Part shown: in pieces, positions 5,087 through 29,009 of the stretch
Position numbering within the stretch: the first letter of the stretch is position 1
Layout of the letters: each line of letters opens with the position of its first letter
Assembly: GCA_903944895.1 (NCBI GenBank)
Contig: CAJATL010000122.1
Coordinates: forward strand, 1 to 38,935
DNA length: 38,935 bases
Origin: an uncultured Bacteroidota bacterium
Lineage (GTDB): Bacteria; Bacteroidota; Bacteroidia; Bacteroidales; 4484-276
Reading direction: 5' to 3'
The notes under the pieces: model-generated
Told to the model about the DNA's origin: nothing
What the model saw: the letters and a program-made list of their open reading frames with translations, nothing else
Database searches by the model: none
Translations under genes and position numbers: made by a program

Positions 5087-5120
5087 TTTGCTGCGTCTTC
5101 GCAGGTTTTTAATATTTTTG
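5087..5120 (+). promoter_or_regulatory. Bacteroidota-type promoter of xdhA-xdhB
   Basis: TTTG at 5087-5090, a 22-nt spacer, and a perfect TAnnTTTG box (TATTTTTG) at 5113-5120. The box ends 24 nt before the ATG at 5145. The reading frame is open through this promoter back to a TTG at 5088, so the promoter is the main reason to reject the longer start. Confidence 0.7.
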
Positions 5121-5144
5121 CAGATAGCAACAAAAAACAAACTG

Positions 5145-6623
5145 ATGGCTCCATCAAAATCCGGCATTGCATTCATTTTAGATAACAAAATAACCGAAAT
5201 CGATTTTTCGGCAAACGATTCATTTAAACCAACAACCACGGTTTTGAATTATCTCCGATCGCTTCCCGGCCACAAAGGCGTTAAGGAAGGTTGCGCTGAA
5301 GGCGATTGTGGTGCTTGTACCATAGTTGTTGCAGAGTTGGATGGCCGAGGCGGTTTAGCTTACAAGAGCCTCGATTCGTGCCTGGTCTTCCTGCCGGCAA
5401 TCCACGGAAAACAGTTGATTACCGTTGAAAATTTAGCCATCAAAAAGGGTAAAGAAATCAAGCTGCATCCTGTTCAGGAATCGATGGTAAAAAAAGATGG
5501 CAGCCAGTGCGGTTACTGCACTCCAGGCGTTGTGATGTCGCTGTTTGCACTTTATAAAACCCATCAGAATCCTTCACGCGAAATCATCGAAGATTCTCTT
5601 ACGGGAAACCTTTGCCGCTGCACGGGTTACCGGCCAATCATTGATGCTGCCACCGAAGCCTGTGGTTTAGACGGTCGTGATCATTTTTCGGAAAATGAGG
5701 AAGAAATTTTTAGCACGCTTCAAAATATCAGTGAAGACAAAACATCTATCGAAATCTATAATCCTGAACAAATATTTTTAAAACCTTTCACCATCGCCGA
5801 AGCCATCCGTTTACGAAAAGAACATCCTGACTCACTGATTGTGAACGGTTCGACCGATGTTGCACTTTTACAGACCAAGAAAAAAATCCTGCTCCCCAAA
5901 ATCCTTGATCTATCGGCGGTTGATGAACTCAAACTCATTGTTGAAGATCACTCGAAAATAGCGGTTGGAGCGGGGACTTCGATGGAGGAATTATTACAGT
6001 TTTGCGAAACCAGGCTTCCTGCACTGGCCACAATTTTAAAAGTGTTTGGCTCGCTTCAAATCCGAAATGTGGCAACCCTCGGCGGAAATATTGCATCGGC
6101 CTCCCCTATCGGCGATACGCTGCCGCTTTTATTAGTCCTCGACACAAAAGTCAGGCTGTTGGCTCCGGGCCGGCAACGCGAATTATTACTCAGCGATTTT
6201 ATCACGGGTTACCGCAAAACAAGTATCGAAGCCGACGAAATCCTTGCATTGATCATTATTTCGAAACCTTTAAAAAATGAAATTATCCGGACCTATAAAA
6301 TTTCAAAACGCAAAGACCTTGATATTTCTTCGGTTTCGGCTTGTTTCAGGCTAAAATCTGATAAAAATAACAATGTAGCTCAGATTAAAATTATTTTTGG
6401 AGGAATGGCCGCAACCGCCCTGCACGCCACTAAAACCGAGGATTTTTTGTTGGGTCAGTCCTGGTCACGTGAAACTGTCGAAAAAGCCATGGAAATTTTG
6501 TATCACGAATTCAGTCCAATCTCAGATGCCAGAGCTGACGAAGAATCAAGGCGGATCATGGCTAAAAATTTATTGATGAAATTTTGGATCGAAACCCAGG
6601 AATCAAAAAATCATTCGGTTTAA
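5145..6623 (+). CDS. xdhA: Xanthine dehydrogenase small subunit, Fe-S and FAD
   Basis: Electron-transfer subunit of a cytoplasmic xanthine dehydrogenase. It would carry electrons from the molybdenum centre in the next gene's product to FAD and then NAD+. In 492 residues the order is: plant-type [2Fe-2S] domain (C50, C55, C58, C79 in GCAEGDCGACTIV), the second [2Fe-2S] helical domain (C122, C125, C157, C159 in QCGYCTPG and LCRCTGYRP), then the CO-dehydrogenase-type FAD domain from about residue 200 with IVNGSTDVALL, the flavin loop TLGGNIASASPIGD and the C-terminal FAD-linked domain. All eight cluster cysteines are present. The ATG at 5145 is chosen because a strong promoter overlaps the longer frame. 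xdhB follows after 25 nt. Confidence 0.93.
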   Translation: MAPSKSGIAFILDNKITEIDFSANDSFKPTTTVLNYLRSLPGHKGVKEGCAEGDCGACTIVVAELDGRGGLAYKSLDSCLVFLPAIHGKQLITVENLAIKKGKEIKLHPVQESMVKKDGSQCGYCTPGVVMSLFALYKTHQNPSREIIEDSLTGNLCRCTGYRPIIDAATEACGLDGRDHFSENEEEIFSTLQNISEDKTSIEIYNPEQIFLKPFTIAEAIRLRKEHPDSLIVNGSTDVALLQTKKKILLPKILDLSAVDELKLIVEDHSKIAVGAGTSMEELLQFCETRLPALATILKVFGSLQIRNVATLGGNIASASPIGDTLPLLLVLDTKVRLLAPGRQRELLLSDFITGYRKTSIEADEILALIIISKPLKNEIIRTYKISKRKDLDISSVSACFRLKSDKNNNVAQIKIIFGGMAATALHATKTEDFLLGQSWSRETVEKAMEILYHEFSPISDARADEESRRIMAKNLLMKFWIETQESKNHSV

Positions 6624-6648: not shown

Positions 6649-8991
6649 ATGAAAATGGTTAAATCTGAAACAAATCCTAACATTTCGCTGCAGCACGAAA
6701 GCGCAATCAGTCATGTTACAGGTCAGTCGGCTTACATCAACGATATGCCGGTAAACGATCAGATGCTTGTGGGGAAGGTTGTTTACAGCAAGTTTGCACA
6801 CGCAGCCATCAAAAGTTTCAACCTGGACAAAGCCAGAAATTTTCCCGGTGTCCGGGCTGTGCTTTCGGTTCATAATATTCCGGGGGCAAACCAGATGGGT
6901 CCAGTAATTCATGATGAACCTTGCCTGGCGGATAAAGTGGTGAATTTTGCCGGTCAGGCCATTTTTTTAATTGCGGCCATTGATGAAGAGACCGCTCGCC
7001 ATGCCGAAAATCTCATCGAAACCGAATTTGAACCGCTTGAACCAATTTTGGATATCGAAACGGCCATACTGAAAAACAGTAAGATTGGTGACGAAAAGCG
7101 CATCGAAACCGGGGATGTTGACAAAAACCTTCAATCGTCGATGTTTCAGATTTCAGGCACGCTCAGAACCGGTGCCCAGGAACATTGGTACCTCGAAACC
7201 CAGTCGTGCGTCTGCATTCCGGGCGAAGGCAGCGAAATGATGGTTTACAGTTCCACCCAACACCCATCCGAAACACAGGCCATCGTTGCCGAAGTTCTGG
7301 ATATTCCGCGAAATGAAGTTACCGTTGAAGTAAAACGCATGGGCGGCGCTTTCGGCGGAAAGGAAACACAGGGAAACCACGTTGCAGCCTGGGCTGCATT
7401 GTTAGCCGACGCCACAAATTGTCCTGTAAAAATTCATCTTTTCAGAGATGACGACCAGATTATGACTGGAAAAAGACACCGTTTTATTTCGCATTATCGC
7501 GCTGGTTTTGATGCTGATGGAAAAATTCTGGCGCTCGATGTTGAATTGAACGCCGATGCCGGCGCGGCTACAGATTTATCCCTGGCCATTTTGGAGCGTG
7601 CACTTTTTCATATCGACAACGCCTATTTCGTACCAAATTTACGGGTAACCGGACAAGCCTGGAAAACCAACCTGCCTTCCAACACAGCTTTTCGGGGATT
7701 TGGAGGCCCTCAGGGAATCGCAGTGATCGAAACGGTGATCGACCGGATTGCCCGGCAACTCAAACTCGATCCGGCCCGGTTGAGACAGCTAAATTTTTAT
7801 CAGACCCGACAAAACAACATCACACATTACGGTGAAGAAGTTGAAAACAACCGGCTGCCAATGATTTTTGATAAGATTATCAGCAACTCCGGCTATTTTC
7901 GACTTAGAGAAGAAGTTGAAGCATTTAACCAAAAAAACGAATTTTATAAAAAAGGTCTGGCGCTCACGCCAGTTAAATTCGGGATTTCTTTTACTACTTC
8001 ATTCCTTAACCAGGCCGGCGCTTTGATTAACATTTTCAGAGATGGCTCTGTGGTGGTCAATCATGGCGGAACCGAGATGGGGCAAGGCCTTCATACAAAA
8101 ATCCTCGAAATTGCTTCAAAAGAACTTGGCATCAGTCACAACCAGATTAAAGTAACTGCTACAAATACTTCCAAAGTCCCGAATACTTCCGCTACTGCAG
8201 CATCCTCGGGCAGCGATCTCAACGGAATGGCCGTAAAAACCGGTATCGAAAAAATTAAAAACAGGCTTCTAACACTTGCCGCTGAACTTTTATCTGAAAA
8301 CCATGGAGGTGAAAATTCTTCTCCCGAAAATATTTCATTTAAAGACAATTTGGTTTTTGATAGCAAAAATCCTGATCGGACGATCTCATTTAGAGATTTG
8401 ATTTCGAACGCTTATTTTAGACAAATCAGCCTGAGTGCGACGGGTTTTTATAAAACTCCGGATATTCACTTCGACAAAATCAAAGGCCGGGGAAGGCCTT
8501 TTCACTACTTCGCTTTCGGAATGTCGGTTTCAGAAGTTCTTGTAGACACATTGACCGGTTATCACAAAATCCTTAAAACCTTTATTGTGCATGATGCCGG
8601 CGATTCATTAAGCGAAAAAATCGACATTGGTCAGATCGAAGGAGGGTTTATCCAGGGTGTTGGCTGGTGTACCTCCGAAGACATCAAATGGAACGAAAAG
8701 GGGCAGCTCCTCAATCATTCGCCCGACACCTATAAAATCCCCGGCGTGCGCGACATTCCGCTGGAATTTCACGTCGAATTACTCAAAGATGCTCCAAATC
8801 ACAGCACCATCAGGGGAAGCAAAGCAGTAGGCGAACCTCCTTTTATGCATGGTTTTTCGGTCTGGCTTGCGATAAAAGATGCCATTTCATCCATTGGAAA
8901 TAACCGGTTCGAGCCGGATTTCCAGATTCCGGCCACCAACGAAGTAATTTTAAAATCAATCGAGAATATCCGGAAAAAAATAAAAAGTTGA
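6649..8991 (+). CDS. xdhB: Xanthine dehydrogenase molybdenum-binding subunit
   Basis: Catalytic subunit that hydroxylates hypoxanthine and xanthine at a molybdopterin centre. The 780 residues match bacterial XdhB in length. Visible motifs are the substrate- and Mo-binding loop RMGGAFGGKETQG, the NTAFRGFGGPQG segment containing the purine-binding Arg, HGGTEMGQGLHTK, TAASSGSD, and KAVGEPPFMHG in which E729 is the proton-abstracting catalytic glutamate. The middle region (MERALFH-like ILERALFHIDNAY, FGISFTTSFLNQAGALI) closely resembles eukaryotic-type xanthine dehydrogenases rather than aldehyde oxidoreductases. No XdhC maturation gene is in the window. It shares the xdhA promoter and is followed by a palindromic repeat instead of a classical terminator. 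Confidence 0.93.
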   Translation: MKMVKSETNPNISLQHESAISHVTGQSAYINDMPVNDQMLVGKVVYSKFAHAAIKSFNLDKARNFPGVRAVLSVHNIPGANQMGPVIHDEPCLADKVVNFAGQAIFLIAAIDEETARHAENLIETEFEPLEPILDIETAILKNSKIGDEKRIETGDVDKNLQSSMFQISGTLRTGAQEHWYLETQSCVCIPGEGSEMMVYSSTQHPSETQAIVAEVLDIPRNEVTVEVKRMGGAFGGKETQGNHVAAWAALLADATNCPVKIHLFRDDDQIMTGKRHRFISHYRAGFDADGKILALDVELNADAGAATDLSLAILERALFHIDNAYFVPNLRVTGQAWKTNLPSNTAFRGFGGPQGIAVIETVIDRIARQLKLDPARLRQLNFYQTRQNNITHYGEEVENNRLPMIFDKIISNSGYFRLREEVEAFNQKNEFYKKGLALTPVKFGISFTTSFLNQAGALINIFRDGSVVVNHGGTEMGQGLHTKILEIASKELGISHNQIKVTATNTSKVPNTSATAASSGSDLNGMAVKTGIEKIKNRLLTLAAELLSENHGGENSSPENISFKDNLVFDSKNPDRTISFRDLISNAYFRQISLSATGFYKTPDIHFDKIKGRGRPFHYFAFGMSVSEVLVDTLTGYHKILKTFIVHDAGDSLSEKIDIGQIEGGFIQGVGWCTSEDIKWNEKGQLLNHSPDTYKIPGVRDIPLEFHVELLKDAPNHSTIRGSKAVGEPPFMHGFSVWLAIKDAISSIGNNRFEPDFQIPATNEVILKSIENIRKKIKS

Positions 8992-10770: not shown

Positions 10771-13700
10771 ATGCCTGATAAATTTTATCCGCCGACCATT
10801 GATCATTTACTGAAGATTATTTTATCTGATCTGGAGACAAAAAACACAATTTTTGATATACCACGACAATTGTTTTTTGACCCGAGTAAAAATCAACACC
10901 TCCACACCGAAAAATTCGGAAAACTCCTACATAATCCGGTTGGTCTGGCAGCCGGACCACACACTCAACTTGCTCAAAACATTATTGCGGGCTGGCTTTG
11001 CGGTGCAAGGTTTATCGAACTCAAAACCGTGCAAACCCTCGATAAACTGGTTGTTTCAAAACCATGCATCGACATGCAGGATGAGGGCTATAATTGTGAA
11101 TGGTCGCAGGAATTAACCATCGAAGAATCCTACGATCAGTATTTGAATGCATGGATAATCATTCACATTCTCAATTATTTACTTTTTGGCTCCAAAAGAG
11201 AGATGCCGCCCCTGGGAACTATTTTCGATATGAGTATTGGTTACAATATCGAAGGCATCACCAAATATAATGTGCAGTGGTATTTACGGAAAATGAATAA
11301 TTGTAAAGAAGAAAAAGACCTGAAAACCGTACTTCTTTCGCCAATATATCCTGATATTAAATTCATCCAGATACCCGAGATTATGTCGAACAGCGTTACG
11401 CTTTCGACCATGCATGGCTGCCCACCGCGAGAAATCGAATATATCGGCAAGTATTTTATGCTCGAAAAAAATCTTCACACCACAATCAAGCTAAATCCAA
11501 CGCTTCTGGGTGAAGAATCAGTAAAAGCTATTATAAACCGTGAGCTTGAGTATAACATCGAAATACCAAAATCAACCTTTAAAAACGATCTGAGTTATCC
11601 TGATGCCATCAGAATTATCGAATCGCTAAGTAAAACATCAGTTGAACTGGGATTATTCTTTGGCATCAAACTCACTAACACCCTGGAGTGTTTAAACCTG
11701 AAAAACATCCTGCCAAAACGCGAACAAAAGATATATATGAGCGGCAAGGCACTGCATCCCATTGCAGTTAATCTCGCAGCTAAACTCCAAATGAAATTCG
11801 ACGGTCAGCTTAATATATCGTTTTCTGGAGGTGCCGATTGTTTCAACATTCCCAACCTGATACAATGTGGTTTCAGCCCGATAACGATGTGTTCGGACCT
11901 TTTAAAACCAGGTGGCTATGCAAGGCTCGCTCAATATTTTACAAATTTGTCCACTGCCTTTAACAAGAAGTCAGCACCCAATATTCCGGCATTTATAAAA
12001 AACGGAAATAAAATTTCAGATATTAAAAAAGCCGCCCTCGATCAGTTAAAAAATTACGCCATCAGTGTGCTCACCAACCCTGATTATCGTAAAAAGAAAT
12101 TGTTCGACAGCAGCATAAAAACGTCGCGTGAACTTGGTCATTTCGATTGTATTCATGCACCTTGTGTTGATACCTGCCCGACAAACCAGGATATACCGGA
12201 TTATTTATGGTTTACCGAAAAAAATGACCTGACCAAAGCCATGATCGCAATTTTGCGCACAAATCCTTTCCCTTCGGTAATGGGAATGATTTGCGACCAT
12301 ATTTGCCAGTTGAAATGCACCCGCATTAATTATGACGACCCGCTCCTGATCAGGGAGATCAAAAGATATGTAGCCGAAAACGCCGCCGATGTTCAGATAA
12401 AAACCGAAAAAATTACCAGGAATGGCCAAAAAGCGGCCATTATAGGCGCTGGTCCGGCCGGGTTATCGTGTGCATGGTTTTTAAATCTTGCAGGTTTTGA
12501 TGTTACGGTTTATGAAGCCAAAGAAAAATCCGGAGGTATGGTTTCCGGCGCAATTCCCGGCTTCAGGATTACCGACCAAACCATCGAAAAAGATATCGAA
12601 CGCATCCGCAACGCTGGAATAAACTTCCAGTTTGGTTATAAAATTGACCACAAACGATTTAAAGAGCTTAAAGCTAAGAATAAAGCCATTTTTGTGGCAT
12701 CCGGCGCTCAAAAAGCAAGCTTGCTCAATATTCCGGATATTGACGCCAAAGGCATTTTAGATCCTCTGGAATTTCTGCACCAGGCAAGAGAAGGCAAGCA
12801 GATGTCGCTGGGTAAAAACGTTGCCATTATCGGAGGCGGAAATACAGCCATGGACGCGGCCCGTACTGCATTCAGATTGGTCGGAAAAGATGGAAGTGTA
12901 ACAATTATATACCGGCGTACCATTAAGGAAATGCCCGCCGACAAAGGTGAAATTCAGGCGGTGCTTGATGAAGGAATTACGATTCTGGAACTGATGTCGC
13001 CAAAAAGAATTATCACCAAAAACAACCAGGCAACAGGTATCGAGTGCATGATGATGACCCTGAAGGACACCGACCAAAGCGGCCGGCCAAAGCCTGTCGA
13101 AATTTCAAAAACCGAATTTGTTCTCGCTTTCGACACCATTATTCCGGCAGTAGGCCAGGAATTGGCTATTGATTTTGTAGATCACGATTTACTGAAAACA
13201 AATCCCGGCTCTTATCAGACTCAAATCGAAAAAGTCTTTATCGGAGGCGACGCCTTACGCGGGGCATCTACAGCCATCAACGCGATTGGTGACGGACGAA
13301 AGGCAGCAGTTGAAATCCTGCGGAAAACAAAATTTGAAGGGAAAGAATATTTTATCATCAAAGAAAAACAAGTTGACATACAACAACTGAAACTGCGCAA
13401 AGCAACCCGCCAGTTTGCCATAAAACCTGTCGAAACTCCGGCAGATATGCGAAGGAATTTCAACCTTATCACGACCACACTTAAACGTGATGACGCTGTT
13501 AAAGAAGCATCCAGATGCCTGCAGTGCGATGTTATTTGCAATGTTTGCATCAGTGTTTGCCCCAATCACTCCAATTTCGGCTATGAGGTTCCTGAAATTC
13601 CCACGAAAGTTATTAAAGTAAAAGTAAAGGGTGGACAAGTCAAAACTTCTGAAAGTAAAACCTTTTCGGTTTCCCAAAAATACCAGGTTTTAAATATTGC

Positions 13701-14064
13701 CGACTGGTGCAACCAATGCGGCAATTGCGACACTTTCTGCCCTTCGGCAGGTGCTCCTTACAAGGATAAGCCCCGGCTGTTCCTGAATAGCGAAAGTTTC
13801 TCCAAATCACCCGATGGTTATCTTTTAAAAGATGAAGGCGACGGAAACAAGAGCCTCTCGATGAAAACCAAAAATTCATCGGCAACGCTTTCCGAAAACT
13901 GGGATGCCTATATTTTCGAAAATGACCACTGCATGATCGTACTCGATAAAAATACGTTAGATGTCAAACAATTTGAATGGATGGGCGATGACGATGCAGA
14001 AATTGAACTCCCTGAAATTCCACAAATGAAAATATTATTGGAAGCAACCAGAAATTTAATCTAA
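10771..14064 (+). CDS. ygfK: YgfK-type flavin/Fe-S oxidoreductase
   Basis: Large multidomain oxidoreductase, historically annotated as a putative selenate reductase subunit and found in anaerobic purine-degradation clusters. At 1097 residues it is slightly longer than E. coli YgfK. Domains: an N-terminal dihydroorotate-dehydrogenase-like barrel (VGLAAGPHTQLAQN, STMHGCPPREIE, KLNPTLLG, FSGGADCFNI, DLLKPGGYARL), a Fe-S linker (C465, C469, C508, C512, C516), FAD-binding IGAGPAGLSC at about 557, NAD(P)-binding IIGGGNTAMD at about 686, and two ferredoxin-like C-terminal Cys sets (C916, C919, C923, C926, C930 and C980, C983, C986, C990). The architecture resembles dihydropyrimidine dehydrogenase fused in one chain. 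It probably shuttles electrons between NAD(P)H and a purine-derived substrate. It starts the operon; the next gene begins 2 nt after its stop. Confidence 0.9.
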   Translation: MPDKFYPPTIDHLLKIILSDLETKNTIFDIPRQLFFDPSKNQHLHTEKFGKLLHNPVGLAAGPHTQLAQNIIAGWLCGARFIELKTVQTLDKLVVSKPCIDMQDEGYNCEWSQELTIEESYDQYLNAWIIIHILNYLLFGSKREMPPLGTIFDMSIGYNIEGITKYNVQWYLRKMNNCKEEKDLKTVLLSPIYPDIKFIQIPEIMSNSVTLSTMHGCPPREIEYIGKYFMLEKNLHTTIKLNPTLLGEESVKAIINRELEYNIEIPKSTFKNDLSYPDAIRIIESLSKTSVELGLFFGIKLTNTLECLNLKNILPKREQKIYMSGKALHPIAVNLAAKLQMKFDGQLNISFSGGADCFNIPNLIQCGFSPITMCSDLLKPGGYARLAQYFTNLSTAFNKKSAPNIPAFIKNGNKISDIKKAALDQLKNYAISVLTNPDYRKKKLFDSSIKTSRELGHFDCIHAPCVDTCPTNQDIPDYLWFTEKNDLTKAMIAILRTNPFPSVMGMICDHICQLKCTRINYDDPLLIREIKRYVAENAADVQIKTEKITRNGQKAAIIGAGPAGLSCAWFLNLAGFDVTVYEAKEKSGGMVSGAIPGFRITDQTIEKDIERIRNAGINFQFGYKIDHKRFKELKAKNKAIFVASGAQKASLLNIPDIDAKGILDPLEFLHQAREGKQMSLGKNVAIIGGGNTAMDAARTAFRLVGKDGSVTIIYRRTIKEMPADKGEIQAVLDEGITILELMSPKRIITKNNQATGIECMMMTLKDTDQSGRPKPVEISKTEFVLAFDTIIPAVGQELAIDFVDHDLLKTNPGSYQTQIEKVFIGGDALRGASTAINAIGDGRKAAVEILRKTKFEGKEYFIIKEKQVDIQQLKLRKATRQFAIKPVETPADMRRNFNLITTTLKRDDAVKEASRCLQCDVICNVCISVCPNHSNFGYEVPEIPTKVIKVKVKGGQVKTSESKTFSVSQKYQVLNIADWCNQCGNCDTFCPSAGAPYKDKPRLFLNSESFSKSPDGYLLKDEGDGNKSLSMKTKNSSATLSENWDAYIFENDHCMIVLDKNTLDVKQFEWMGDDDAEIELPEIPQMKILLEATRNLI

Positions 14065-14066
14065 AA

Positions 14067-15536
14067 ATGAAAAACACCGAAAAAATCCTACAGAACACCA
14101 TCGAAAGGTGCAGGGAAAAGCACATCATTATCCCGACCTATAAGCAAATGCGTAATCCGGAATTAATTCCTGAAAAAATTAAAAACAAGCTAAAAAATAT
14201 TGGTTTGTGGGATTTAAATTCGCTTAACCTTTTCAGGATCACCTGGAAAAACGAACCAGTCGAATTTGGCGGAGGTTACGGAGATGTAAACTTTATCGAG
14301 ATACCACCCGAACTCTCCGGAGTTAAGGCAAGGATTATCGTATTAATCGGTAAATTTTTCCCAACCGGCGCTCACAAAGTTGGCGCAACATTTGGGCCTT
14401 TGGTCGAAAAGCTCATAACCGGAAATTTCGATCCAACCCGTCAAAAAGCCTTGTGGCCCTCAACCGGAAATTATTGCCGCGGTGGCGCTTACGACTCTTA
14501 TCTGCTGGGCTGTGCCTCCATTGCAGTGCTCCCGCAAGGAATGTCGAGTGAGCGCTTCGAATGGCTGAAAACTGTTGGTGCCGAGATTTTTGCAACACCA
14601 GGCAGCGAAAGCAACGTAAAAGAAATATACGATAAAGTAAAAGTACTTGAAGCCGAACGTGGTGACGAGATTGTAACGCTCAACCAGTTTGGTGAAATGG
14701 GGAATCCCCGCTGGCATTATGCTGTTACCGGTCCGGCTATGGGAGAAGTTTTTGATCAGATTAAAACACCAAAATCCAGACTTGCTGCGCTTTTCCTGAC
14801 GCAAGGTTCAACCGGAACGCTTGGAAGCGGCGAATATCTGAAAGAAAAACATCCGCTCATGAAAATTTGTGCCGGAGAAGCTGCCCAATGTCCTACCATG
14901 CTTTATAATGGCTATGGCGAACACCGCATCGAAGGTATCGGCGATAAACACGTGCCCTGGGTTCATAATGTAAAAAATACCGACATGGTTGCCGCCATCG
15001 ACGACGAGTCGAACATGCATATCCTGCGCCTTTTCAACGAAGGTGAAGGACAAAAATTCCTCCAGCAAAATGCCGGAGTAAATCCTGAACTCATCGCAAA
15101 ACTTAAACTTTTGGGAATTTCTTCGATTGCAAATATGATGGGCTGTATAAAAATGGCCAAATATTACGAAATGACCGCGGATGATGTTGTTTTTACTGTG
15201 GCAACCGACAGCGTTGAAATGTACAGATCCCGCCTTGCAGAAGAAAACGAAAGACTCGGCAAATATTCCGAAATAAAAGCTGCTATCGATTTTGAAGCAC
15301 ATTTGCTTGCCATCAAAACCGACAATATGATCGAGCTGGATTTTTATGGCAAAAAAAGAATCCACAATCTAAAATACTTTACATGGATTGAGCAGCAAGG
15401 CAAGACTGTTGAAGAACTCAATGCCCAGTGGTATTCCAGTGATTATTGGACAAACGAATGGAATAAAGCTGACGACTGGGACGAAAAAATTGATGAATTC
15501 AATAAAAAAACTGGTGTGATAAAAGAATATGCTTAG
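14067..15536 (+). CDS. PLP-dependent fold-type II enzyme, unknown substrate
   Basis: A 489-residue member of the tryptophan-synthase-beta/cysteine-synthase fold. FPTGAHKVGATFGPL holds the likely PLP Schiff-base lysine K104; LWPSTGNYCRGGAYDSYLLG is the usual phosphate/substrate loop; FLTQGSTGTLGSGEYLKE is the glycine-rich PLP-phosphate loop. It is not similar to YgeX/DpaL (diaminopropionate ammonia-lyase) by eye, although it sits directly after ygfK, where such a lyase would be expected. The C-terminal about 130 residues (YGKKRIHNLKYFTWIEQQGK onward) form an extension of acidic and aromatic character. A beta-elimination or C-C cleaving step on an amino-acid product of purine ring opening is one possible role. 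Specificity is unknown. Confidence 0.8.
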   Translation: MKNTEKILQNTIERCREKHIIIPTYKQMRNPELIPEKIKNKLKNIGLWDLNSLNLFRITWKNEPVEFGGGYGDVNFIEIPPELSGVKARIIVLIGKFFPTGAHKVGATFGPLVEKLITGNFDPTRQKALWPSTGNYCRGGAYDSYLLGCASIAVLPQGMSSERFEWLKTVGAEIFATPGSESNVKEIYDKVKVLEAERGDEIVTLNQFGEMGNPRWHYAVTGPAMGEVFDQIKTPKSRLAALFLTQGSTGTLGSGEYLKEKHPLMKICAGEAAQCPTMLYNGYGEHRIEGIGDKHVPWVHNVKNTDMVAAIDDESNMHILRLFNEGEGQKFLQQNAGVNPELIAKLKLLGISSIANMMGCIKMAKYYEMTADDVVFTVATDSVEMYRSRLAEENERLGKYSEIKAAIDFEAHLLAIKTDNMIELDFYGKKRIHNLKYFTWIEQQGKTVEELNAQWYSSDYWTNEWNKADDWDEKIDEFNKKTGVIKEYA

Positions 15537-15560: not shown

Positions 15561-16808
15561 ATGAACCTCAAATTTAAATACCAATGTGTCAATTGCGGCA
15601 ATGAGATTCAGACTGACGACATCATCTATCTCTGCCCAAAGTGTGAACCTCAAAATAAGCCAGGACAGCCACTTCTTGGGGTTCTAAAGATAATTTATGA
15701 TTACAAGGCCATCATCGAAGATTTCGGAGGTGAGGATTTGTTTTACAATCTTAAAAATGAGCTGTTTTTCGATTTATTGCCCATCGAACAATCAGGCAGC
15801 ATTCCAGGCCTGCATATCGGCAATACTCCATTTTACGAAGTTGACGAGTTCGATGGAAAGCCGCTCAAATCGACACTTTTCATTAAAAATGATGCCCGAA
15901 ATCCTACGCTCTCGTTAAAAGACAGAGCATCGGCTTTGGTTTCAGCCTTCGCAAAAGAAAAAGGCATTAACAAAATATTGACGGCCTCCACGGGCAACGC
16001 AGGTTCATCGTTAGCCGGCATTTGTGCAGCACAGGGCCAGGAATCGGTTATTGTGGTTCCTGAAAATGCCCCGCTGGCCAAGCTTACGCAGATGTTGATG
16101 TTTGGTGCAACCATTATTCCCGTAAAAGGAAACTATGACGATGCCTTTGAACTCAGCCTTAAATTGACAAAAGAAACGGGGATTTACAACCGCAACACAG
16201 CCTACAACCCAATAACTATCGAAGGCAAAAAAAATGTTGCTTTTGAAATCTACGAGCAGCTCGACGGCGAATTACCCGATACAATTTTCATCCCGGTTGG
16301 CGATGGAGTTATCATTTCGGCGGTTTATAAAGGATTTGAAGATTTATTGCTGCTCGGCATCATCGAACATATTCCAACCATTGTTGCCGTCCAGGCCGAA
16401 GGCAGTCCAAATCTTGTAAATAATCTCAAAAGCAAGGTTTTTAAATCGGTAAAAAGCAAAACCATTGCTGATTCGATAAGTGTCGACTATCCAAGTAATT
16501 TTTACATGACTTCGAAATTCATCCATAATTATAAAGGTGCAGGAGTTTTGGTGAGTGATGAAGAAATCCTTCAGGCCTCTCTGAAACTGGCAAGGAGTAC
16601 GGGCATTTTCGCTGAACCCGCCGCTGCCGCCGCCATGGCAGGTTTTCTGAAATGGCACCATGAAAACATGATCCCGGATGATTCGTCAAGTCTCGTTCTG
16701 ATAACTGGTTCCGGACTAAAAGACCTTGACTCGGTAAAAGGCATTTTAAAAATGCCGGAATCGATTTCGTGCGATGTCGATCAGGCCAAAAAAATATTGG
16801 GGTTTTAA
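15561..16808 (+). CDS. Threonine-synthase-like PLP enzyme with zinc ribbon
   Basis: A 415-residue fold-type II PLP enzyme. It begins with a zinc-ribbon knuckle (C9, C12, C25, C28), as in many archaeal-type threonine synthases. The PLP lysine is K120 in NPTLSLKDRASALV; TASTGNAGSSLAGICAAQG is the substrate/phosphate loop; FIPVGDGVIISAVYKGFEDL and LVLITGSGLKDLDS complete the PLP site. It could be a genuine threonine synthase (thrC), but the setting, 24 nt after another PLP enzyme and inside a purine-type operon with no other threonine genes, suggests a specialised lyase. The two adjacent PLP proteins could act on the same or consecutive substrates. Which is right cannot be settled from motifs alone. 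Confidence 0.8.
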   Translation: MNLKFKYQCVNCGNEIQTDDIIYLCPKCEPQNKPGQPLLGVLKIIYDYKAIIEDFGGEDLFYNLKNELFFDLLPIEQSGSIPGLHIGNTPFYEVDEFDGKPLKSTLFIKNDARNPTLSLKDRASALVSAFAKEKGINKILTASTGNAGSSLAGICAAQGQESVIVVPENAPLAKLTQMLMFGATIIPVKGNYDDAFELSLKLTKETGIYNRNTAYNPITIEGKKNVAFEIYEQLDGELPDTIFIPVGDGVIISAVYKGFEDLLLLGIIEHIPTIVAVQAEGSPNLVNNLKSKVFKSVKSKTIADSISVDYPSNFYMTSKFIHNYKGAGVLVSDEEILQASLKLARSTGIFAEPAAAAAMAGFLKWHHENMIPDDSSSLVLITGSGLKDLDSVKGILKMPESISCDVDQAKKILGF

Positions 16809-20087: not shown

Positions 20088-22646
20088 ATGATAAATTTTA
20101 ATCTAAACGGAAAATCGCTGATGTATGAGGGAGACGAAAACCTCAGTTTACTTGATTTTTTGCGTGAAAAACAAGGCATAATCTCCGTTAAAGATGGTTG
20201 TTCGGCGCAAGCTGCCTGTGGTGCCTGCATGGTTGAAATTGGCGGAAAAGCCAAACTTTCGTGTGTGACAAAAATGGGTACGCTGAACCAAAAAAATGTC
20301 ATCACTACCGAGGGAATTCCCGAACCGGTTAAGACAATTTTAGCCAATGCTTTTGTTGGAAAGGGTGCTGTGCAATGCGGTTTTTGTACGCCCGGATTCA
20401 TCATGCGCGCCAAAGTTTTATTTATCGAAAACCCACATCCAACTCGGCATGAAATTGCTGTGGCACTCAAGCAAAACCTTTGCCGCTGCACGGGTTATGC
20501 CAAAATAATCGATGCCATCGAACTTGCCATCGAAAAACTCCGCACCAATCAAACCCTCGAGTTACCGCCAGATGATGGAAAAGTTGGGACAAATCATTCA
20601 AAATACCTTGCTCACGAACTTGCCCTGGGCCAACAACCTTTTGTAAACGATCTTAAATTTGATGGAATGCTTCACGCGGCTTTGCGTTTTAGTGATCATC
20701 CCAAAGCAAAAATTCTGAAAATCGATGCCGCTGAAGCCATGAAATTAGCAGGTGTGATAAAGATTTTTACGGCTGAAGATATTCCGGGAAATCCTAAAAC
20801 CGGCCTTATTTTCAAAGATTGGCCGCTCATGATTGCTGAGGGTGAAACCACCCGTTACATCGGCGATGTGATTGCCGGCGTAGTTGCCGAAAATCGCCGG
20901 ATAGCCCGTAAAGCAGCAACTTTAATAAAAATCAGTTACGATATTTTCACACCAGTTACAAACCCTTTTGAGGCTTTGATGCCCGATGCTCCAAAGGTGC
21001 ATGAAAATATTTCGAACCTTTTGGAAAACTGCATCGTAAAGCGTGGTAATCCAGAAGAAACCTTCAAAAATGCAGCTTTCACTGCCGAAGGCGATTTTGA
21101 AACCCAGCGTATCGAACATGGTTTTCTGGAACCCGAATCAGCCGTTGCCATGCCCGAAGATGACGGGATCAGGCTTTTCAGCCAGGGACAAGGCGTTTAC
21201 GTTGACCGGAGTCAGATTGCAGGATTACTCGGTTTACCCGAAGATAAAATCAGGATAAGCCAGGTTCAGACCGGCGGAGGCTTTGGTGGCAAAGAGGATC
21301 TTACCGTGCAGGGACATGCCTGCCTTTTTGCATTAATACTCCAAAAACCGGTTAAACTTACCCTAAACCGCGAGGAATCAATCCGCATGCATCCCAAGCG
21401 CCACCCGGTGTGGATGAAAATGAAAATTGCCTGCGACCATTCCGGCAAGCTCACCGGCCTCAGACTGGATGCCATTGGCGACACCGGCGCTTACGCCTCC
21501 GTTGGCAACAAAGTGATGGAAAGGGTTGCCGGCCATGCTTCGGGGGCTTATTATTTTCCGGAAATCGACCTCCAGTCGAAAACCGTTTACACCAACAATA
21601 TTCCAAGCGGCGCTATGCGCGGCTTTGGCGTAAACCAGGTAACTTTTGCTCTGGAAGTGCTCATGGATGAATTATGCGAAAAAGGTGGATTCGACCGCTG
21701 GAAATTCAGGTACGACAACGCTTTAACCGAAGGTTCGATGACTTCCACCGGGCAAATTATGGAAGCCGGCGTTGGTGTTCGCAAAACACTCGAAGCTGTA
21801 AAAGCAGAGTTTTACCAGGCAAAATATGCCGGGCTGGCTTGCGGAATCAAAAATTCGGGCGTTGGCAACGGTATGGCTGACGAAAGTTCGGTAAAAATTA
21901 AGATCTGTGAAAATGGAAAAATCCTCCTAAGCCATGGCTGGTCGGAGATGGGACAAGGAGTGCACACCATGGCCCTTCAGGTACTTTGCCAGGAAACCGG
22001 CATTGCTCCTGAGCTGATCGAGGTAAAAGTTGAGACAACCGAAGAACTCAATACCGGGATGACAACTTCCTCCCGTGCCACCGCACTTGTTGGAAATGCT
22101 ATTATCGACGCCTCTAAACTTTTAAAGGAAGATTTGAAGACAAAAAAGCTTTCCGAACTCATCGGAAATGTTTACTCGGGTCGTTTCATCTGTGATTGGA
22201 CCACAAAACCAGGCGCAAAAACTGATAAAATAATCACCCATTATTCTTATGGTTACGCCACCCAACTTGTGGTACTGGATGAGAAAGGCAACATCGAAAA
22301 AGTTGTTGCTGCCCACGATGTAGGAAAAATCATCAATCCCACTTTGTTTGAAGGCCAGATTGAAGGCGCCGTGCACATGGGTCTGGGTTACGCCCTCACC
22401 GAAGATTTGCCCATGAAGGACGGAAGATTAATCTCAGAAAAATACCGGGATTGCGGAATTTTACGTGCGCACGAAATGCCCGAAGTTATTGTAAAAGCTG
22501 TGGAGGTGACTGATCCTGTAGGGCCTTATGGCGCAAAAGGAATTGGCGAAATTGGCCTCGTTCCCACCGCCGCCGCGGTAGCTAATGCATTGTATCAAAT
22601 CGACGGAATCAGAAAATACAAATTACCATTAAAGCGAAAAATATGA
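20088..22646 (+). CDS. xdhD: Molybdenum hydroxylase, Se-dependent xanthine dehydrogenase type
   Basis: Single-chain [2Fe-2S] plus molybdopterin hydroxylase without a FAD domain, 852 residues, resembling the XdhD / selenium-dependent xanthine dehydrogenase family of anaerobic purine clusters. N-terminal ferredoxin cysteines are C38, C44, C47 and C59; the second cluster set is C97, C100, C132, C134 (QCGFCTPG, LCRCTGYAK). The Mo domain shows QTGGGFGGKED, PSGAMRGFGVNQ, HGWSEMGQGVHTM, TTSSRATALVGNA and GAKGIGEIGL with catalytic E821. The first cluster has C-x5-C-x2-C rather than the usual C-x4-C-x2-C spacing. There is no in-frame UGA, so any selenium would be a labile ligand. Electrons probably pass to a separate flavoprotein, perhaps YgfK. 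Its last 4 nt overlap the next gene. The symbol is by analogy. Confidence 0.85.
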   Translation: MINFNLNGKSLMYEGDENLSLLDFLREKQGIISVKDGCSAQAACGACMVEIGGKAKLSCVTKMGTLNQKNVITTEGIPEPVKTILANAFVGKGAVQCGFCTPGFIMRAKVLFIENPHPTRHEIAVALKQNLCRCTGYAKIIDAIELAIEKLRTNQTLELPPDDGKVGTNHSKYLAHELALGQQPFVNDLKFDGMLHAALRFSDHPKAKILKIDAAEAMKLAGVIKIFTAEDIPGNPKTGLIFKDWPLMIAEGETTRYIGDVIAGVVAENRRIARKAATLIKISYDIFTPVTNPFEALMPDAPKVHENISNLLENCIVKRGNPEETFKNAAFTAEGDFETQRIEHGFLEPESAVAMPEDDGIRLFSQGQGVYVDRSQIAGLLGLPEDKIRISQVQTGGGFGGKEDLTVQGHACLFALILQKPVKLTLNREESIRMHPKRHPVWMKMKIACDHSGKLTGLRLDAIGDTGAYASVGNKVMERVAGHASGAYYFPEIDLQSKTVYTNNIPSGAMRGFGVNQVTFALEVLMDELCEKGGFDRWKFRYDNALTEGSMTSTGQIMEAGVGVRKTLEAVKAEFYQAKYAGLACGIKNSGVGNGMADESSVKIKICENGKILLSHGWSEMGQGVHTMALQVLCQETGIAPELIEVKVETTEELNTGMTTSSRATALVGNAIIDASKLLKEDLKTKKLSELIGNVYSGRFICDWTTKPGAKTDKIITHYSYGYATQLVVLDEKGNIEKVVAAHDVGKIINPTLFEGQIEGAVHMGLGYALTEDLPMKDGRLISEKYRDCGILRAHEMPEVIVKAVEVTDPVGPYGAKGIGEIGLVPTAAAVANALYQIDGIRKYKLPLKRKI

Positions 22647-23095
22647 CAACATTAAATCAAGTGAAAGAATTCCTGGATCAGAAACATATCGCAATTGCCG
22701 GGATTTCGCGCAAATCTCAAAAGTTTGGAAACGCAATTTTCAAGGAACTGCAAAAAAAGAATTATCAGCTTTATCCCATTCACCGGGAGATGACTGAATT
22801 TGAAGGGACGAAATGTTATCCGGATGTAAAATCACTGCCTCCTGAAGTTTCGGCGCTTGTTATTTGCACGCAGCCCGCGCAGAGTGCGGATTTAATGAAG
22901 GAAGCCATTGCAAAAAAAATCCGGCATGTCTGGCTTCAGCAAGGTGCTCAAAATGATGAAAGCATAAGTCTGGCTGAGCAAAACCAGATCAATCTCATTC
23001 AAAAAGAGTGCGTGCTGATGTTTGCCGAACCATCCGTTTTTATCCACCGTTTTCATCGGGGAATCAATAAAATTTTCGGCAAGCTTCCCAAATAA
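22643..23095 (+). CDS. CoA-binding (YccU-like) Rossmann protein
   Basis: A 150-residue CoA_binding_2 domain protein, the whole length being one Rossmann fold. The glycine/phosphate loop is IAIAGISRKSQKFGNAIFKELQ, followed by YQLYPIHREMTEFEGTKCYPDVKSLP and VSALVICTQPAQSADLMKEAIAKKIRHVWLQQGAQ, all typical. The family is widespread and its role is largely unknown; CoA or nucleotide binding is inferred from homologous domains of succinyl-CoA synthetase. It overlaps the XdhD-like gene by 4 nt (ATGA), which implies coupled translation, and is followed 13 nt later by the glycosylase-like gene. Confidence 0.88.
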   Translation: MTTLNQVKEFLDQKHIAIAGISRKSQKFGNAIFKELQKKNYQLYPIHREMTEFEGTKCYPDVKSLPPEVSALVICTQPAQSADLMKEAIAKKIRHVWLQQGAQNDESISLAEQNQINLIQKECVLMFAEPSVFIHRFHRGINKIFGKLPK

Positions 23096-23108: not shown

Positions 23109-24116
23109 ATGGAAAATACGCAAACCAGACTCAACCCGGACGTTTGTGAAAATGTTGCACAAACGATTAAAGGGCTAAAACTTCGAACCGACTTTTACAA
23201 CCGCGAATATTTAAATCCTGCTGTTGATGAAGAAACAAAATTCAGGATGAACTTCTTCGCCGTTGCAATCTGTCATCAAACCTACAAGCTACAAAACCTT
23301 CCCTTAAACCTTTTTGGCTGGGATTATCTGGAATATGGATTTGTCAGGTTTGCAAAATTAAATTCGCCCATTCTCGACCCTCAGTTTTTGGCGCATTCAA
23401 CTGTAAACGAAGTTATCGAAATACTCAGGCCGGCATTTTCGCCCGATGAAAAACCCGAAAACTGCACCCTCGACAGGTTGGACGAACGCGCTGAGCTAAT
23501 GATTCAGGCAGGAAAACTGATTTCTTCAGATTATCAGAACAGCGTAAAAAATCTTATCTGCTCTGCTGACGGATTTTTACTTCACCAGGGCAAAGGTTTG
23601 TATGAAATCCTTCCGCATTTTGAAGCTTTTGCCGATCCTTTACAGAAAAAATCCACCTTTCTCATCAAATTGCTGATGGAAGCCAACCTTCTTAAAATCA
23701 ACGATCCCGAAAATTTTATCCCCATCATGGATTACCATATGCAGCGTGTGCTCATGAGGCTTGGCTGCATCGAAATCGTTGATGAAACGCTTCGCCGGAA
23801 ACTGATCAACCGCGAAACCTTGCCATCCGATGAAGTGGTGCGAAACCGCTGCATTGAGGCCTTTAAACTCATTGCTGTAATTTCGGGACATCCGGTAACC
23901 AAAATGAACGATTTTTTCTGGTCGTTAGGCCGGAGCTGCTGCAACCAGACCACTTTGTGCCAGGCCAGGGTTTGCGAAAAAAATCCGTGTACCTTTACGC
24001 AAATTATCGAAATCAACGATCATTCACATTGCATTTTTGAGCCTGTTTGCAAAGGTTTCCGCCAAAGTGATTATCGAAATTTATGGCAACCGGTCATCGA
24101 AACACATTATTACTAA
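23109..24116 (+). CDS. Qng1/queuosine-salvage-like protein with Cys cluster
   Basis: A 335-residue cytoplasmic protein. Parts resemble the queuosine-salvage N-glycosylase family (DUF2419/Qng1), which hydrolyses the base from queuosine 5'-phosphate. Compare LDRLDERAELMIQAGKLI with that family's ERxxLLxxxGxxL pattern, and IPIMDYHMQRVLMRLGCIEI with the conserved [A/M]DYRxPQVLRxLG region carrying the catalytic aspartate, here D208. It differs by a Cys-rich tail (C277, C278, C284, C289, C294, C308, C314), similar to the [4Fe-4S] loop of endonuclease-III-type HhH glycosylases. The ATG at 23109 is chosen because the upstream frame overlaps the previous gene. In this operon it could be a nucleoside or nucleotide glycosidase supplying free purine base. 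That role is inference; family membership is moderately supported. Confidence 0.6.
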   Translation: MENTQTRLNPDVCENVAQTIKGLKLRTDFYNREYLNPAVDEETKFRMNFFAVAICHQTYKLQNLPLNLFGWDYLEYGFVRFAKLNSPILDPQFLAHSTVNEVIEILRPAFSPDEKPENCTLDRLDERAELMIQAGKLISSDYQNSVKNLICSADGFLLHQGKGLYEILPHFEAFADPLQKKSTFLIKLLMEANLLKINDPENFIPIMDYHMQRVLMRLGCIEIVDETLRRKLINRETLPSDEVVRNRCIEAFKLIAVISGHPVTKMNDFFWSLGRSCCNQTTLCQARVCEKNPCTFTQIIEINDHSHCIFEPVCKGFRQSDYRNLWQPVIETHYY

Positions 24117-25968: not shown

Positions 25969-27786
25969 ATGAATTTCAAAATCTATCAAAGACAAAACTT
26001 TATGTTTTCAAAATTAAAGAACTTCCTTGCTCTTCTCCCGATAATCCTGATTCTGGCTTCTTGTCAGCAAGTTCAGAAACCTGAATCTTTTAAAATCAAA
26101 ATCATCGAAACCAGCGATGTTCACGGCGCCATCTTTCCTTTTGATTTTAAAGATGATAAACCCACCGAAAATTCACTAGCCCGTGTGATGACTTTTGTAC
26201 GGGATGAGCGCGCCAAACCAGGGCAATTGGTGATTCTCCTCGATAATGGCGACATCCTGCAAGGCGACCCCATGGTTTATTATTCGAATTTTGAAAAAAC
26301 AAACGAGCCGCACATTTGCTCACAGGTGATGAATTATATGGGCTACGATGCCGCCACCATCGGAAACCACGATATTGAGGCCGGCCATCCGGTTTATGAT
26401 AAGTTAAATGCGGAGTTTAAATTTCCCTGGCTTGCTGCCAACGCTGTTGATGTAAAATCGGGGAAACCCTATTTTAAACCTTATTTTGTGATTGAAAAGG
26501 ACGGTTTAAAAATAGCCGTTCTCGGTTTGATTACTCCCGCAATTCCAAAATGGCTGCCCGAAAAAATCTATGCAGGGATGGAATTTGAAGACATGATCGA
26601 ATCGGCGAAAAAATGGGTTAAGATCATAAACGAAAACGAAAAACCTGATGTACTCATCGGGCTTTTCCATGCCGGTGTTGAGTATAATTACAACGGTCAG
26701 CAGGCCGAAACAGCTTTTAACGAAAACGCCTCCAAACTTGTAGCCGAGCAGGTTCCGGGTTTTGATGTCGTTTTTGTTGGCCATGATCACCATGGCTGGA
26801 ATGAATCGCTGAAAAACTGGGCCGGAAATGAAGTTCTGATTCTCGGAACAACAAGCCGGGCTTACGATGTAGCCGTCGCAAACATCGATCTTAAGCTTCA
26901 TAAAACAACGGGTCATTACGAAAAAACGATGTCGGGCGAAATTGTCGAAATGAAAAACCTTAGCCCTGATCCTGAATTTATGGCACAATTCCAGCCGGCT
27001 TTTGAGGAGGTAAAAAAATACGTATACCGGCCAATCGGCTCGTTTACCGAAAGTATCTCATCCAAGGACGCCCTTTTCGGGGATTCAAAATTTATTGACC
27101 TGATTCACCAGATTCAGTTGGAGATTACCGGAGCTGACATTTCGTTTGTTGCACCGCTTTCGTTCGACAGTCAGATTAATGAGGGCGAAATTTACGTCCG
27201 CGACATGTTTAAGTTGTACAAATTCGAAAACCTGCTTTACACCATGGAACTGGGAGGTCAGGAAATCAAGGATTACCTGGAATACTCCTGCAGCCTGTGG
27301 TTTAATGAAATGAAAGACGAAAACGACCATCTCATAAAATTCAGAACCGACAGCCTTGGAAATCCACAAAAATCGGCAAACGGTAAAACCTTGATGCTCG
27401 AAAATGCTTTCTACAACTTCGATTCAGGAGAAGGAATCCTTTATACGGTAGATCTCCAAAACCAAACCGGTGAAAGAGTTTCGATCATTTCGATGGCCGA
27501 TGGTTCACCCTTCGATCTGAACAAAAAATACAAGGTTGCAGTAAATTCATATCGCGGAAACGGTGGTGGAAATCACCTCACAGCAGGTTCCAAAATCAGG
27601 AGTGAACTCTTAAAAGACCGGATTTTGAATTCGACAGAAAAAGATTTGCGGTTTTACCTGATGAAATGGATCGAAGAAAAAGGAACCGTCACCCCGCAGA
27701 AAAACGACAACTGGAAAATCCTGCCTGAAAACTGGTTTGAAAAAGGGAAAGAAAAGGATTACCCGCTGCTTTTTGGAATTAATTAG
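25969..27786 (+). CDS. 5'-nucleotidase/metallophosphatase lipoprotein
   Basis: Surface or periplasmic enzyme of the 5'-nucleotidase/2',3'-cyclic phosphodiesterase family, removing phosphate from nucleotides. The metallophosphoesterase motifs appear in order: ETSDVHGAIFPFD, LLDNGDILQGDP, IGNHDIE, GLFHAGVEY and VGHDHHGW, followed by the C-terminal substrate domain with YKVAVNSYRGNGGGNHLT. The lipobox ILASCQQ anchors the protein. The start is uncertain: the ATG at 26002 (MFSKLKNFLALLP) gives the neatest lipoprotein signal, and 25969 adds 11 residues. Phosphate-free nucleosides from it could feed the upstream purine genes, which is an inference. A palindrome with a T-tract ends the unit. Confidence 0.9.
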   Translation: MNFKIYQRQNFMFSKLKNFLALLPIILILASCQQVQKPESFKIKIIETSDVHGAIFPFDFKDDKPTENSLARVMTFVRDERAKPGQLVILLDNGDILQGDPMVYYSNFEKTNEPHICSQVMNYMGYDAATIGNHDIEAGHPVYDKLNAEFKFPWLAANAVDVKSGKPYFKPYFVIEKDGLKIAVLGLITPAIPKWLPEKIYAGMEFEDMIESAKKWVKIINENEKPDVLIGLFHAGVEYNYNGQQAETAFNENASKLVAEQVPGFDVVFVGHDHHGWNESLKNWAGNEVLILGTTSRAYDVAVANIDLKLHKTTGHYEKTMSGEIVEMKNLSPDPEFMAQFQPAFEEVKKYVYRPIGSFTESISSKDALFGDSKFIDLIHQIQLEITGADISFVAPLSFDSQINEGEIYVRDMFKLYKFENLLYTMELGGQEIKDYLEYSCSLWFNEMKDENDHLIKFRTDSLGNPQKSANGKTLMLENAFYNFDSGEGILYTVDLQNQTGERVSIISMADGSPFDLNKKYKVAVNSYRGNGGGNHLTAGSKIRSELLKDRILNSTEKDLRFYLMKWIEEKGTVTPQKNDNWKILPENWFEKGKEKDYPLLFGIN

Positions 27787-28019: not shown

Positions 28020-28418
28020 ATGGAAATGAAGATATTTTTTGAAGGAAATAAAAAAGTTAATGCCGAATTCAACGGGCAAATAATCATGACCGACCAACCT
28101 GTGCAGGCTGGCGGCGATGGAAGCGCACCAGCTCCATTTACCCTGTTTCTGGCCAGCATCGGAACTTGTGCAGGTATTTATGTTAAATCGTTTTGTGCGC
28201 AGCGCAACATCCCCACCGATGAAATCACGATTACTCAAAAAATGAATTACAACTACAAAACCCGCCTCGTCGATGACATCCAGCTCAATATTAACCTGCC
28301 TAAAGATTTTCCCGAAAAATACAAGGCTGCCATTATTAATGCGGCAAATTTGTGTGCAGTAAAAGAACACCTCAACAATCCGCCAAATATTGAAGTGTCA
28401 ACAATAATCGCTGATTAA
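28020..28418 (+). CDS. OsmC-family protein
   Basis: A 132-residue member of the OsmC/Ohr superfamily, thiol peroxidases or their relatives. The conserved first cysteine lies in FLASIGTCAGIYVKSFC and the second in INAANLCAVKEHL, the usual two-cysteine arrangement. The SAPAPFTLFLASIGTC stretch is typical of the YhfA-like subgroup rather than Ohr. A role in hydroperoxide handling is plausible but the subgroup is poorly characterised. A TAnnTTTG box (TATTTTTG) lies at 27984-27991, 28 nt before the ATG, and a terminator follows that also ends the convergent nitroreductase gene. Confidence 0.9.
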   Translation: MEMKIFFEGNKKVNAEFNGQIIMTDQPVQAGGDGSAPAPFTLFLASIGTCAGIYVKSFCAQRNIPTDEITITQKMNYNYKTRLVDDIQLNINLPKDFPEKYKAAIINAANLCAVKEHLNNPPNIEVSTIIAD

Positions 28419-28429
28419 TTATAACTCCG

Positions 28430-28456
28430 CCCGGCCCCAAAAGCCGGGTTTTTCTT
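28430..28456. terminator. Terminator between osmC-like gene and nitroreductase
   Basis: A 6-bp G+C stem (28430-28435 with 28443-28448), 7-nt loop, then a T-tract on the + strand. It stands between two convergent genes and serves at least the + strand gene. Confidence 0.7.
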
Positions 28457-28466
28457 TCCCGGTATT

Positions 28467-29009
28467 TCAATATTTATTAAAACTCAGCACCTCGTCCAGG
28501 CTTTTTCTTTTCTTTTTTGGGATCGTTTCGTAATCAGGATATCCCACCGAAATTAGTAATCCAATAGTATTTTTTTCAGGTATTCCGAGGAGTTTTTGGA
28601 TGGGTTTTTCGTTGTACCAGCCCAACATGCAGGTGCCAAGCCCTTCTTCGGCAGCCTGAAGACAAAAATGTTCGGCAGCAATGCCAATGTCGATGAGCGC
28701 CCATTCTTTATTTTTGAGCTTCTCCCCTATTTGCGTGATCAACTTTGGCTTTTCCAAAACAATAACCAAAATAACAGGCGCTTGCTTCACAAATTTATTA
28801 AAAGGCACCAGCATCGAAAATGTTTCATGAGCCACCTTTTGGACCAGTTCGGGATCATCAACCACTATAAATTTCCAGGGCTGCGAATTGCTGGCCGAAG
28901 GCGCCAGCCGGGCAGATTCGATGCACCGCTGTATTTTTTCCTTTTCGACAGGCTGAGGTTTATATTTTCTTACGCTGAAACGTTTTTTAACAAGTTCTTG
29001 AAAATCCAT
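28467..29009 (-). CDS. Nitroreductase-family flavoprotein
   Basis: The only clear gene on the - strand. A 180-residue FMN-dependent nitroreductase-like oxidoreductase. The start MDFQELVKKRFSVRKYKPQPV contains the family's RxSxRxY motif for FMN phosphate. ARLAPSASNSQPWKFIVV is the second FMN site, and AAEEGLGTCMLGWYN is the conserved C-terminal segment. The ATG at 29009 is chosen over the upstream extension (29054), as it matches the family N-terminus. Substrate is unknown; such proteins reduce nitro compounds, quinones or flavins with NAD(P)H. It converges on the OsmC-like gene. Confidence 0.9.
   Translation of the reverse strand: MDFQELVKKRFSVRKYKPQPVEKEKIQRCIESARLAPSASNSQPWKFIVVDDPELVQKVAHETFSMLVPFNKFVKQAPVILVIVLEKPKLITQIGEKLKNKEWALIDIGIAAEHFCLQAAEEGLGTCMLGWYNEKPIQKLLGIPEKNTIGLLISVGYPDYETIPKKKRKSLDEVLSFNKY

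Follow-up and report, generated by a model that had tools for sequence, protein, structure and literature searches.

A divergent Qng1-superfamily protein with an invariant Cys/His cluster in a probable reductive purine operon of Bacteroidales

The stretch of DNA analysed here, 38,935 nucleotides in full and referred to throughout as the window, encodes a 335-residue protein that almost certainly belongs to the Qng1 superfamily, as a divergent member with the HhH-glycosylase fold. The active-site lysine and aspartate of Qng1 are conserved and a C-terminal insert, rich in invariant cysteines, very probably binds metal. An N-glycosidase activity is probable, and the neighbouring genes suggest a purine-type compound as substrate.

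The gene and its operon

The open reading frame starts with an ATG at 23109 and ends with a stop codon at 24114-24116. The frame stays open further upstream, as far as a TTG at 23022; the ATG is nevertheless preferred, lying 13 nt beyond the stop codon of the preceding CoA-binding gene and agreeing with the start of the closest homologue. The features of the window are listed in Table 1.

Table 1. Features of the operon and of the Qng1-superfamily protein, with positions in the window
Feature	Position	Strand	Evidence or remark
Xanthine dehydrogenase small subunit XdhA	5088..6623	+	TIGR02963, 537.9 bits (cut-off 467)
Xanthine dehydrogenase Mo subunit XdhB	6649..8991	+	TIGR02965, 999.9 bits (cut-off 849.5)
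EamA transporter	9061-9915	+	
YgfK (reductive purine dearomatase in the E. coli urate pathway)	10771..14064	+	TIGR03315, 899.2 bits (cut-off 835.3)
PLP-dependent enzyme (PALP), cysteine-synthase-like	14067..15536	+	PF00291; possible diaminopropionate-type lyase step
Threonine-synthase-like PLP enzyme	15561..16808	+	TIGR00260, 188.3 bits (cut-off 167.1)
Selenium-type xanthine dehydrogenase (or urate dehydroxylase), SeXDH, 852 aa	20088..22646	+	TIGR03311, 920.9 bits (cut-off 830)
YccU-like CoA_binding_2 protein	22643..23095	+	PF13380
Q_salvage/Qng1-superfamily protein with C-terminal Cys/His cluster, 335 aa	23109..24116	+	the gene under study
ICHQT segment, residues 54-58	23268..23282	+	at the place of Qng1 NFCFW/NFSFW
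K180	23646..23648	+	invariant; aligned with StQng1 K199
D208-G219, DYHMQRVLMRLG	23730..23765	+	D208 aligned with StQng1 D231
Cys/His cluster C277, C278, C284, C289, C294, H305, C308, C314	23937..24050	+	probable metal site(s); insert relative to Qng1
SsnA-like amidohydrolase, 423 aa	24144..25415	+	PF01979
5'-nucleotidase/cyclic phosphodiesterase	25969..27786	+	PF02872, PF00149

An earlier note on this DNA had placed the gene in a purine operon. This is confirmed and can be made more specific, with YgfK, SeXDH, the SsnA-like amidohydrolase and XdhA/XdhB all present, and from this gene content the cluster is very probably a reductive purine or urate operon. YgfK lies near the XDH-type enzyme and both exceed their cut-offs (TIGR03315 and TIGR03311). 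In E. coli, XdhD converts urate to yanthine, which is reduced and opened by YgfK and SsnA, and HyuA comes next (PMC12507026). The SsnA-like protein scores under the curated cut-offs, with 362.8 against 444 bits for NF005540 and 318.5 against 455.5 bits for TIGR03314. Bacteroidota are not among the phyla listed for SsnA in PMC12507026, an absence that such sub-cut-off scores may explain. Among 393 genomes of the order an SsnA-like gene is found in 98, SeXDH in 93 and both in 88. The YgfK/SeXDH/SsnA-like cluster in genomes of the Bacteroidales type is a probable reductive urate pathway.

Genes for a TPR histidine kinase and then a HAD phosphatase lie on the + strand between the PLP enzymes and SeXDH, and a small ORF separates the SsnA-like gene from that of the 5'-nucleotidase. 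The PLP pair that follows YgfK also stands ahead of SeXDH, with the gene order unchanged, in four other loci (L011, L017, L024 and L027), and the two enzymes may stand in for YgeX, the diaminopropionate lyase. In these same four loci a D-hydantoinase/dihydropyrimidinase is encoded after SsnA, that of L011 scoring over the TIGR02033 cut-off.

Family and overall fold

The sole Pfam match of the protein is PF10343 (Q_salvage), which scores 30.3 bits (cut-off 25) over residues 70-242. No further Pfam family was matched at E <= 1, HhH-GPD (PF00730) included, and a search of NCBIfam gave no match. Scanning of genome contigs provided a set of 54 homologous loci, nearly all from uncultured Bacteroidales; none was found in viral contigs or in plasmids. 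The alignment used below holds 49 sequences, that of the window included, with members 42-77% identical to the window protein, and 40 of the 49 match PF10343 (E <= 0.01).

AlphaFold2 calculations on this alignment gave a model with pLDDT 96.5 and pTM 0.94. A Foldseek search with the model placed Qng1/DUF2419 chains in the top eleven positions (E 8e-9 to 3e-7). VIA-align superposition onto StQng1 (PDB code 7uk3) gives Z 27.6 with 275 residues aligned at 2.6 Å, and onto human QNG1 Z 27.1; the Qng1 crystal structures overall span Z 26.6-27.6. After Qng1 the values fall to about 15 for AGOG (15.1 across 235 residues) and endonuclease III, and to 14 for MutY. The earlier note saw a resemblance both to Qng1/DUF2419 and to HhH-type glycosylases. 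The former is borne out by the Pfam score, by the breadth of matches across the homologues and by the structural comparisons. The latter holds for the fold, given the AGOG and endonuclease III matches, but not for the HhH-GPD profile. An unrelated fold did not emerge, the best matches being Qng1 itself.

Single-sequence phmmer against the PDB returned nothing at E <= 10, and a profile search there found Qng1 at E 0.1, level with spurious matches to Cas9. The link to Qng1 in the PDB therefore rests on fold and not on the sequence profile. A literature search found no Fe-S or purine link of DUF2419.

The active site

We take D231 and K199 to form the active site of Qng1, on the basis of PDB entry titles and general knowledge; 7ulc is entitled as the D231N mutant and 7u5a as K199C. 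In the PDB sequences of StQng1 the aspartate is located in ADYKVP and the lysine in FYKRAQ. Three MAFFT alignments set D208 of the window protein opposite D231, and K180 opposite K199. The same pairing of D208 is obtained with hhalign, but K187 rather than K180 is chosen for the lysine. Asp208, Lys180, Lys181 and Lys187 are all invariant in the 49 aligned sequences. Two motifs had been singled out in the earlier note, DYHMQRVLMRLG (residues 208-219, with D208 as the first residue) and DERAELMIQAGKLI (residues 125-138); both are found where it put them in the translated ORF, and D208, aligned with D231 and invariant, is the counterpart of the Qng1 active-site aspartate. An aromatic segment, FCFW or FSFW, is common to StQng1, human QNG1 and the canonical Qng1 described below. 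The window protein instead displays ICHQT, in which Cys55, Gln57 and Thr58 are invariant.

That canonical Qng1 (L056) occurs in the same assembly (G000) on contig C344, at 28111-28890, next to the gene of an ABC ATPase protein containing two ATPase modules. The GC content of the C344 stretch is 0.305, against 0.42 in the window, and the GC3 values of the genes are 0.22 and 0.47, respectively. It is the only canonical Qng1 among 296 genomes of the phylum. We considered whether this gene and the one under study are a paralogue pair and dropped the idea on account of the GC and GC3 mismatch and because no other of the 296 genomes has one. The contig may be foreign to the assembly and was left out as evidence.

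The C-terminal Cys/His cluster

Seven of the 13 cysteines fall in the last 60 residues, at positions 277, 278, 284, 289, 294, 308 and 314, which agrees with the number in the earlier note. The C-terminal bias, computed within the window protein alone, has a hypergeometric P of 0.003. All seven cysteines together with His305 are invariant in 49 of 49 aligned sequences, so the clustering is not a matter of chance; the note had made its reading depend on D208 and the cysteines being conserved, and none of them varies. The pattern GRSCC-x5-C-x4-C-x4-C-x10/11-H-x2-C-x5-C is kept in 47 sequences and shifted by one or two residues in the other two, whilst the GRSCC-x5-C-x4-C-x4-C part occurs in all 49. 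The exact spacing of the cluster is the same in 43, the remaining six differing by a residue or two. The cluster constitutes an insert of about 45 residues between the ND-F/L-W helix of Qng1 and the C-terminal end. It is missing from the C344 Qng1 and from StQng1; the alignment with human QNG1 stopped before this region.

An invariant set of this kind points to metal binding or to disulfides, with metal far likelier beside an anaerobic, Fe-S-dependent pathway. That the protein binds some metal is predicted with considerable confidence, and [4Fe-4S] is the somewhat favoured identity. Two sites are possible since eight ligands exceed the need of one [4Fe-4S]. The earlier note likened the cluster to the Fe-S site of endonuclease III. 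The placement after the last core helix agrees with this, but the spacing does not, C-x6-C-x4-C-x4-C when counted from C277 as opposed to C-x6-C-x2-C-x5-C in the endonuclease III loop, nor does the comparison with the host genome's own Nth, which carries HGRYVC-x6-C-x2-C-x5-C and gave no match to the protein profile in hhalign (probability 0.3%). The C-terminal region modelled by itself folds poorly (pLDDT 76, pTM 0.48) and gave no structural match.

Linkage and distribution

Within 6 kb and on the same strand, SeXDH is found at 18 of the 54 loci, SsnA at 12 and either at 20; many others are cut by contig ends. Mapped on the tree, this linkage requires 6 changes compared to 13.6 in shuffles and is present in several deep clades, so that it reflects neither one recent event nor random arrangement. 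Co-occurrence was examined in the 393 genomes of the order, 34 of which carry a homologue. SeXDH is present in 23 of these 34 and in 70 of the 359 others (Fisher P 1e-8), SsnA in 23 and 75, respectively (P 4e-8), both P values being uncorrected for descent. Ten carriers (approximately 30%) have neither gene, and 79 genomes have those genes without the homologue, which is thus neither required for nor restricted to the pathway.

A CoA-binding protein is encoded beside the homologue, on its upstream side, in 11 of the 54 loci. Other neighbours are a HIT protein (nine loci), a thiamine-binding protein, a radical SAM protein and a 5'-nucleotidase (three each), the last as a relative encoded directly downstream in L005, L007 and L050. 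A thymidine kinase gene lies beside the homologue in L055. The HIT, 5'-nucleotidase and thymidine kinase neighbours fit general nucleotide salvage. The gene of the thiamine-binding MTH1187 protein overlaps the homologue start by one base in L025 (7684-7995), L033 (4712-5023) and L037 (2489-2800), as does that of the radical SAM protein in L034 (7201-7989), and we note these proteins as further possible functional partners.

The homologues of L013 and L055, on contigs labelled Micrarchaeota and Patescibacteria, pair on the tree (SH-aLRT 97); a canonical Q_salvage match is present in the L055 genome as well. The placement would be due to transfer out of Bacteroidota or else to a binning error. 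Purine nucleoside phosphorylase scores over cut-off in 26 of the 34 carriers and in 30 of 34 controls; the idea that the gene substitutes for this phosphorylase was dropped, given its presence in those 26.

Assessment of function

What might such a protein do? The best explanation, to which we assign an even chance, is a soluble hydrolytic N-glycosidase acting on a free purine-type nucleotide or nucleoside and carrying a structural metal site. The components of this proposal differ in strength. We expect the protein to be an N-glycosidase, presumably hydrolytic, whilst the judgement that its substrate is a free purine nucleotide or nucleoside, which derives from the operon only, is evenly balanced. 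A role on plain purine nucleosides is disfavoured because most carriers already have the phosphorylase. The enzyme would cut the bond between base and ribose, and the freed base would be passed to the xanthine dehydrogenase/YgfK/SsnA chain. Lys180 and Asp208 would act as Lys199 and Asp231 do in Qng1, holding the substrate and stabilising the positive charge on the ribose during attack by water. A metal centre, or a pair of them, would be enclosed by the C-terminal insert; a [4Fe-4S] cluster positioned as in endonuclease III is the likeliest, and its role would be structural and not redox.

Queuosine salvage in the manner of Qng1, releasing queuine from Q-5'-monophosphate with the operon context incidental, might be expected given that no fold is closer than that of Qng1, that no other Pfam family is matched and that the active-site residues align. 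Moreover, 34 of the 54 loci, some of them cut by contig ends, are without a SeXDH or SsnA neighbour within 6 kb. Nevertheless we regard this task as unlikely, since all 34 carriers, like all 34 controls, have a queA that scores over its cut-off, and the carriers therefore make queuosine de novo. The near absence of canonical Qng1 from the phylum (one of 296 genomes) and the lack of any queuosine gene among the annotated neighbours also count against it, and the replacement of the aromatic FCFW segment by ICHQT may do so too. A nucleic-acid glycosylase, excising damaged or deaminated purines from DNA or RNA with the help of an endonuclease III-like Fe-S loop, appears similarly doubtful. Qng1, an enzyme of free nucleotides, gives a Z almost double the values of 15 for AGOG and endonuclease III and 14 for MutY that would recommend the idea, there is no HhH-GPD match in Pfam (E <= 1) and no Nth profile match, and the operon holds catabolic enzymes rather than repair genes. 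In its favour, one homologue scores weakly for AGOG (E 0.0076), the Cys loop opens with GR-x-x-C, much as the organism's own Nth has HGRYVC, and deaminated purines would suit the purine context.

The position of the homologue directly downstream of SeXDH in many loci, with overlapping ends in L004, and the invariance of the cysteines could indicate a non-hydrolytic protein that serves the Mo/Se enzymes in maturation or electron transfer, the Cys cluster being the working part. This we consider improbable. Eleven of the 34 carriers lack SeXDH and 70 genomes have SeXDH without the homologue; each occurs without the other, hence the protein is not a dedicated SeXDH maturation factor. In addition, a partner without catalytic activity would have no need of Asp208, Lys180 and other core Qng1 residues, yet the protein retains them. 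An alternative that concerns only the metal is that the same enzyme binds structural zinc through its Cys/His set. The eight ligands include a histidine, their spacing is unlike that of the endonuclease III loop and two four-ligand sites would use them all. Against this, the cluster sits after the last core helix, where endonuclease III and MutY carry [4Fe-4S], and the pathway of the operon is anaerobic and rich in Fe-S; neither point is decisive, and zinc remains a minority option that deserves to be taken seriously.

Returning to the hydrolytic N-glycosidase with a free purine-type substrate, a more specific version can be put forward tentatively. The protein may represent an Fe-S branch of the Qng1 superfamily and, by hydrolysing a free purine ribonucleotide such as xanthosine or urate monophosphate, carry out the first step in the anaerobic degradation of purines by Bacteroidales. 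If true, this would give the Qng1 family a new substrate and its first metal-cluster member acting on free nucleotides; to our knowledge queuine salvage is the one role described for Qng1. A branch with a conserved metal site and ties to urate and xanthine genes would mean that other nucleotides are within the reach of the superfamily, would connect free-nucleotide glycosidases with the Fe-S DNA glycosylases and would bring a so far unrecognised enzyme into anaerobic purine catabolism. The breakdown of urate by bacteria has a bearing on gout.

Comparison with known systems

The window protein shares with Qng1 (DUF2419, PF10343; PDB codes 7u07, 7u91, 7ulc and 7ugk) the fold, the Pfam family and the active-site lysine and aspartate, as well as conserved ER and ND/W helix positions and a C-terminal T/Y end. 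It differs in an identity of only 17-19%, in ICHQT for FCFW, in the Cys/His insert of about 45 residues after the last core helix and in its setting, a purine operon in genomes that make their own queuosine.

Endonuclease III and MutY display the same glycosylase fold (Z 13-15) and a Cys loop after the last core helix, starting GR-x-x-C. Their spacing is C-x6-C-x2-C-x5-C, whereas the window protein has C-x5/6-C-x4-C-x4-C and an extra H-x2-C-x5-C; there is no sequence-profile match between them and those enzymes act on DNA. AGOG (PF09171), the archaeal 8-oxoguanine DNA glycosylase, provides the next best fold after Qng1 but is a DNA repair enzyme and is scored by only one of the 49 sequences (E 0.0076). 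We know of no such Cys cluster in AGOG.

The reductive uric-acid cluster of E. coli and C. difficile comprises XdhD, YgfK, SsnA and HyuA and, as described in PMC12507026, the published clusters are without a Qng1-like gene. In other respects the window resembles them, with YgfK, an XDH-type enzyme, an SsnA-like protein and a PLP enzyme, and the likeness extends to a HyuA-type hydantoinase after SsnA in L011, L017, L024 and L027.
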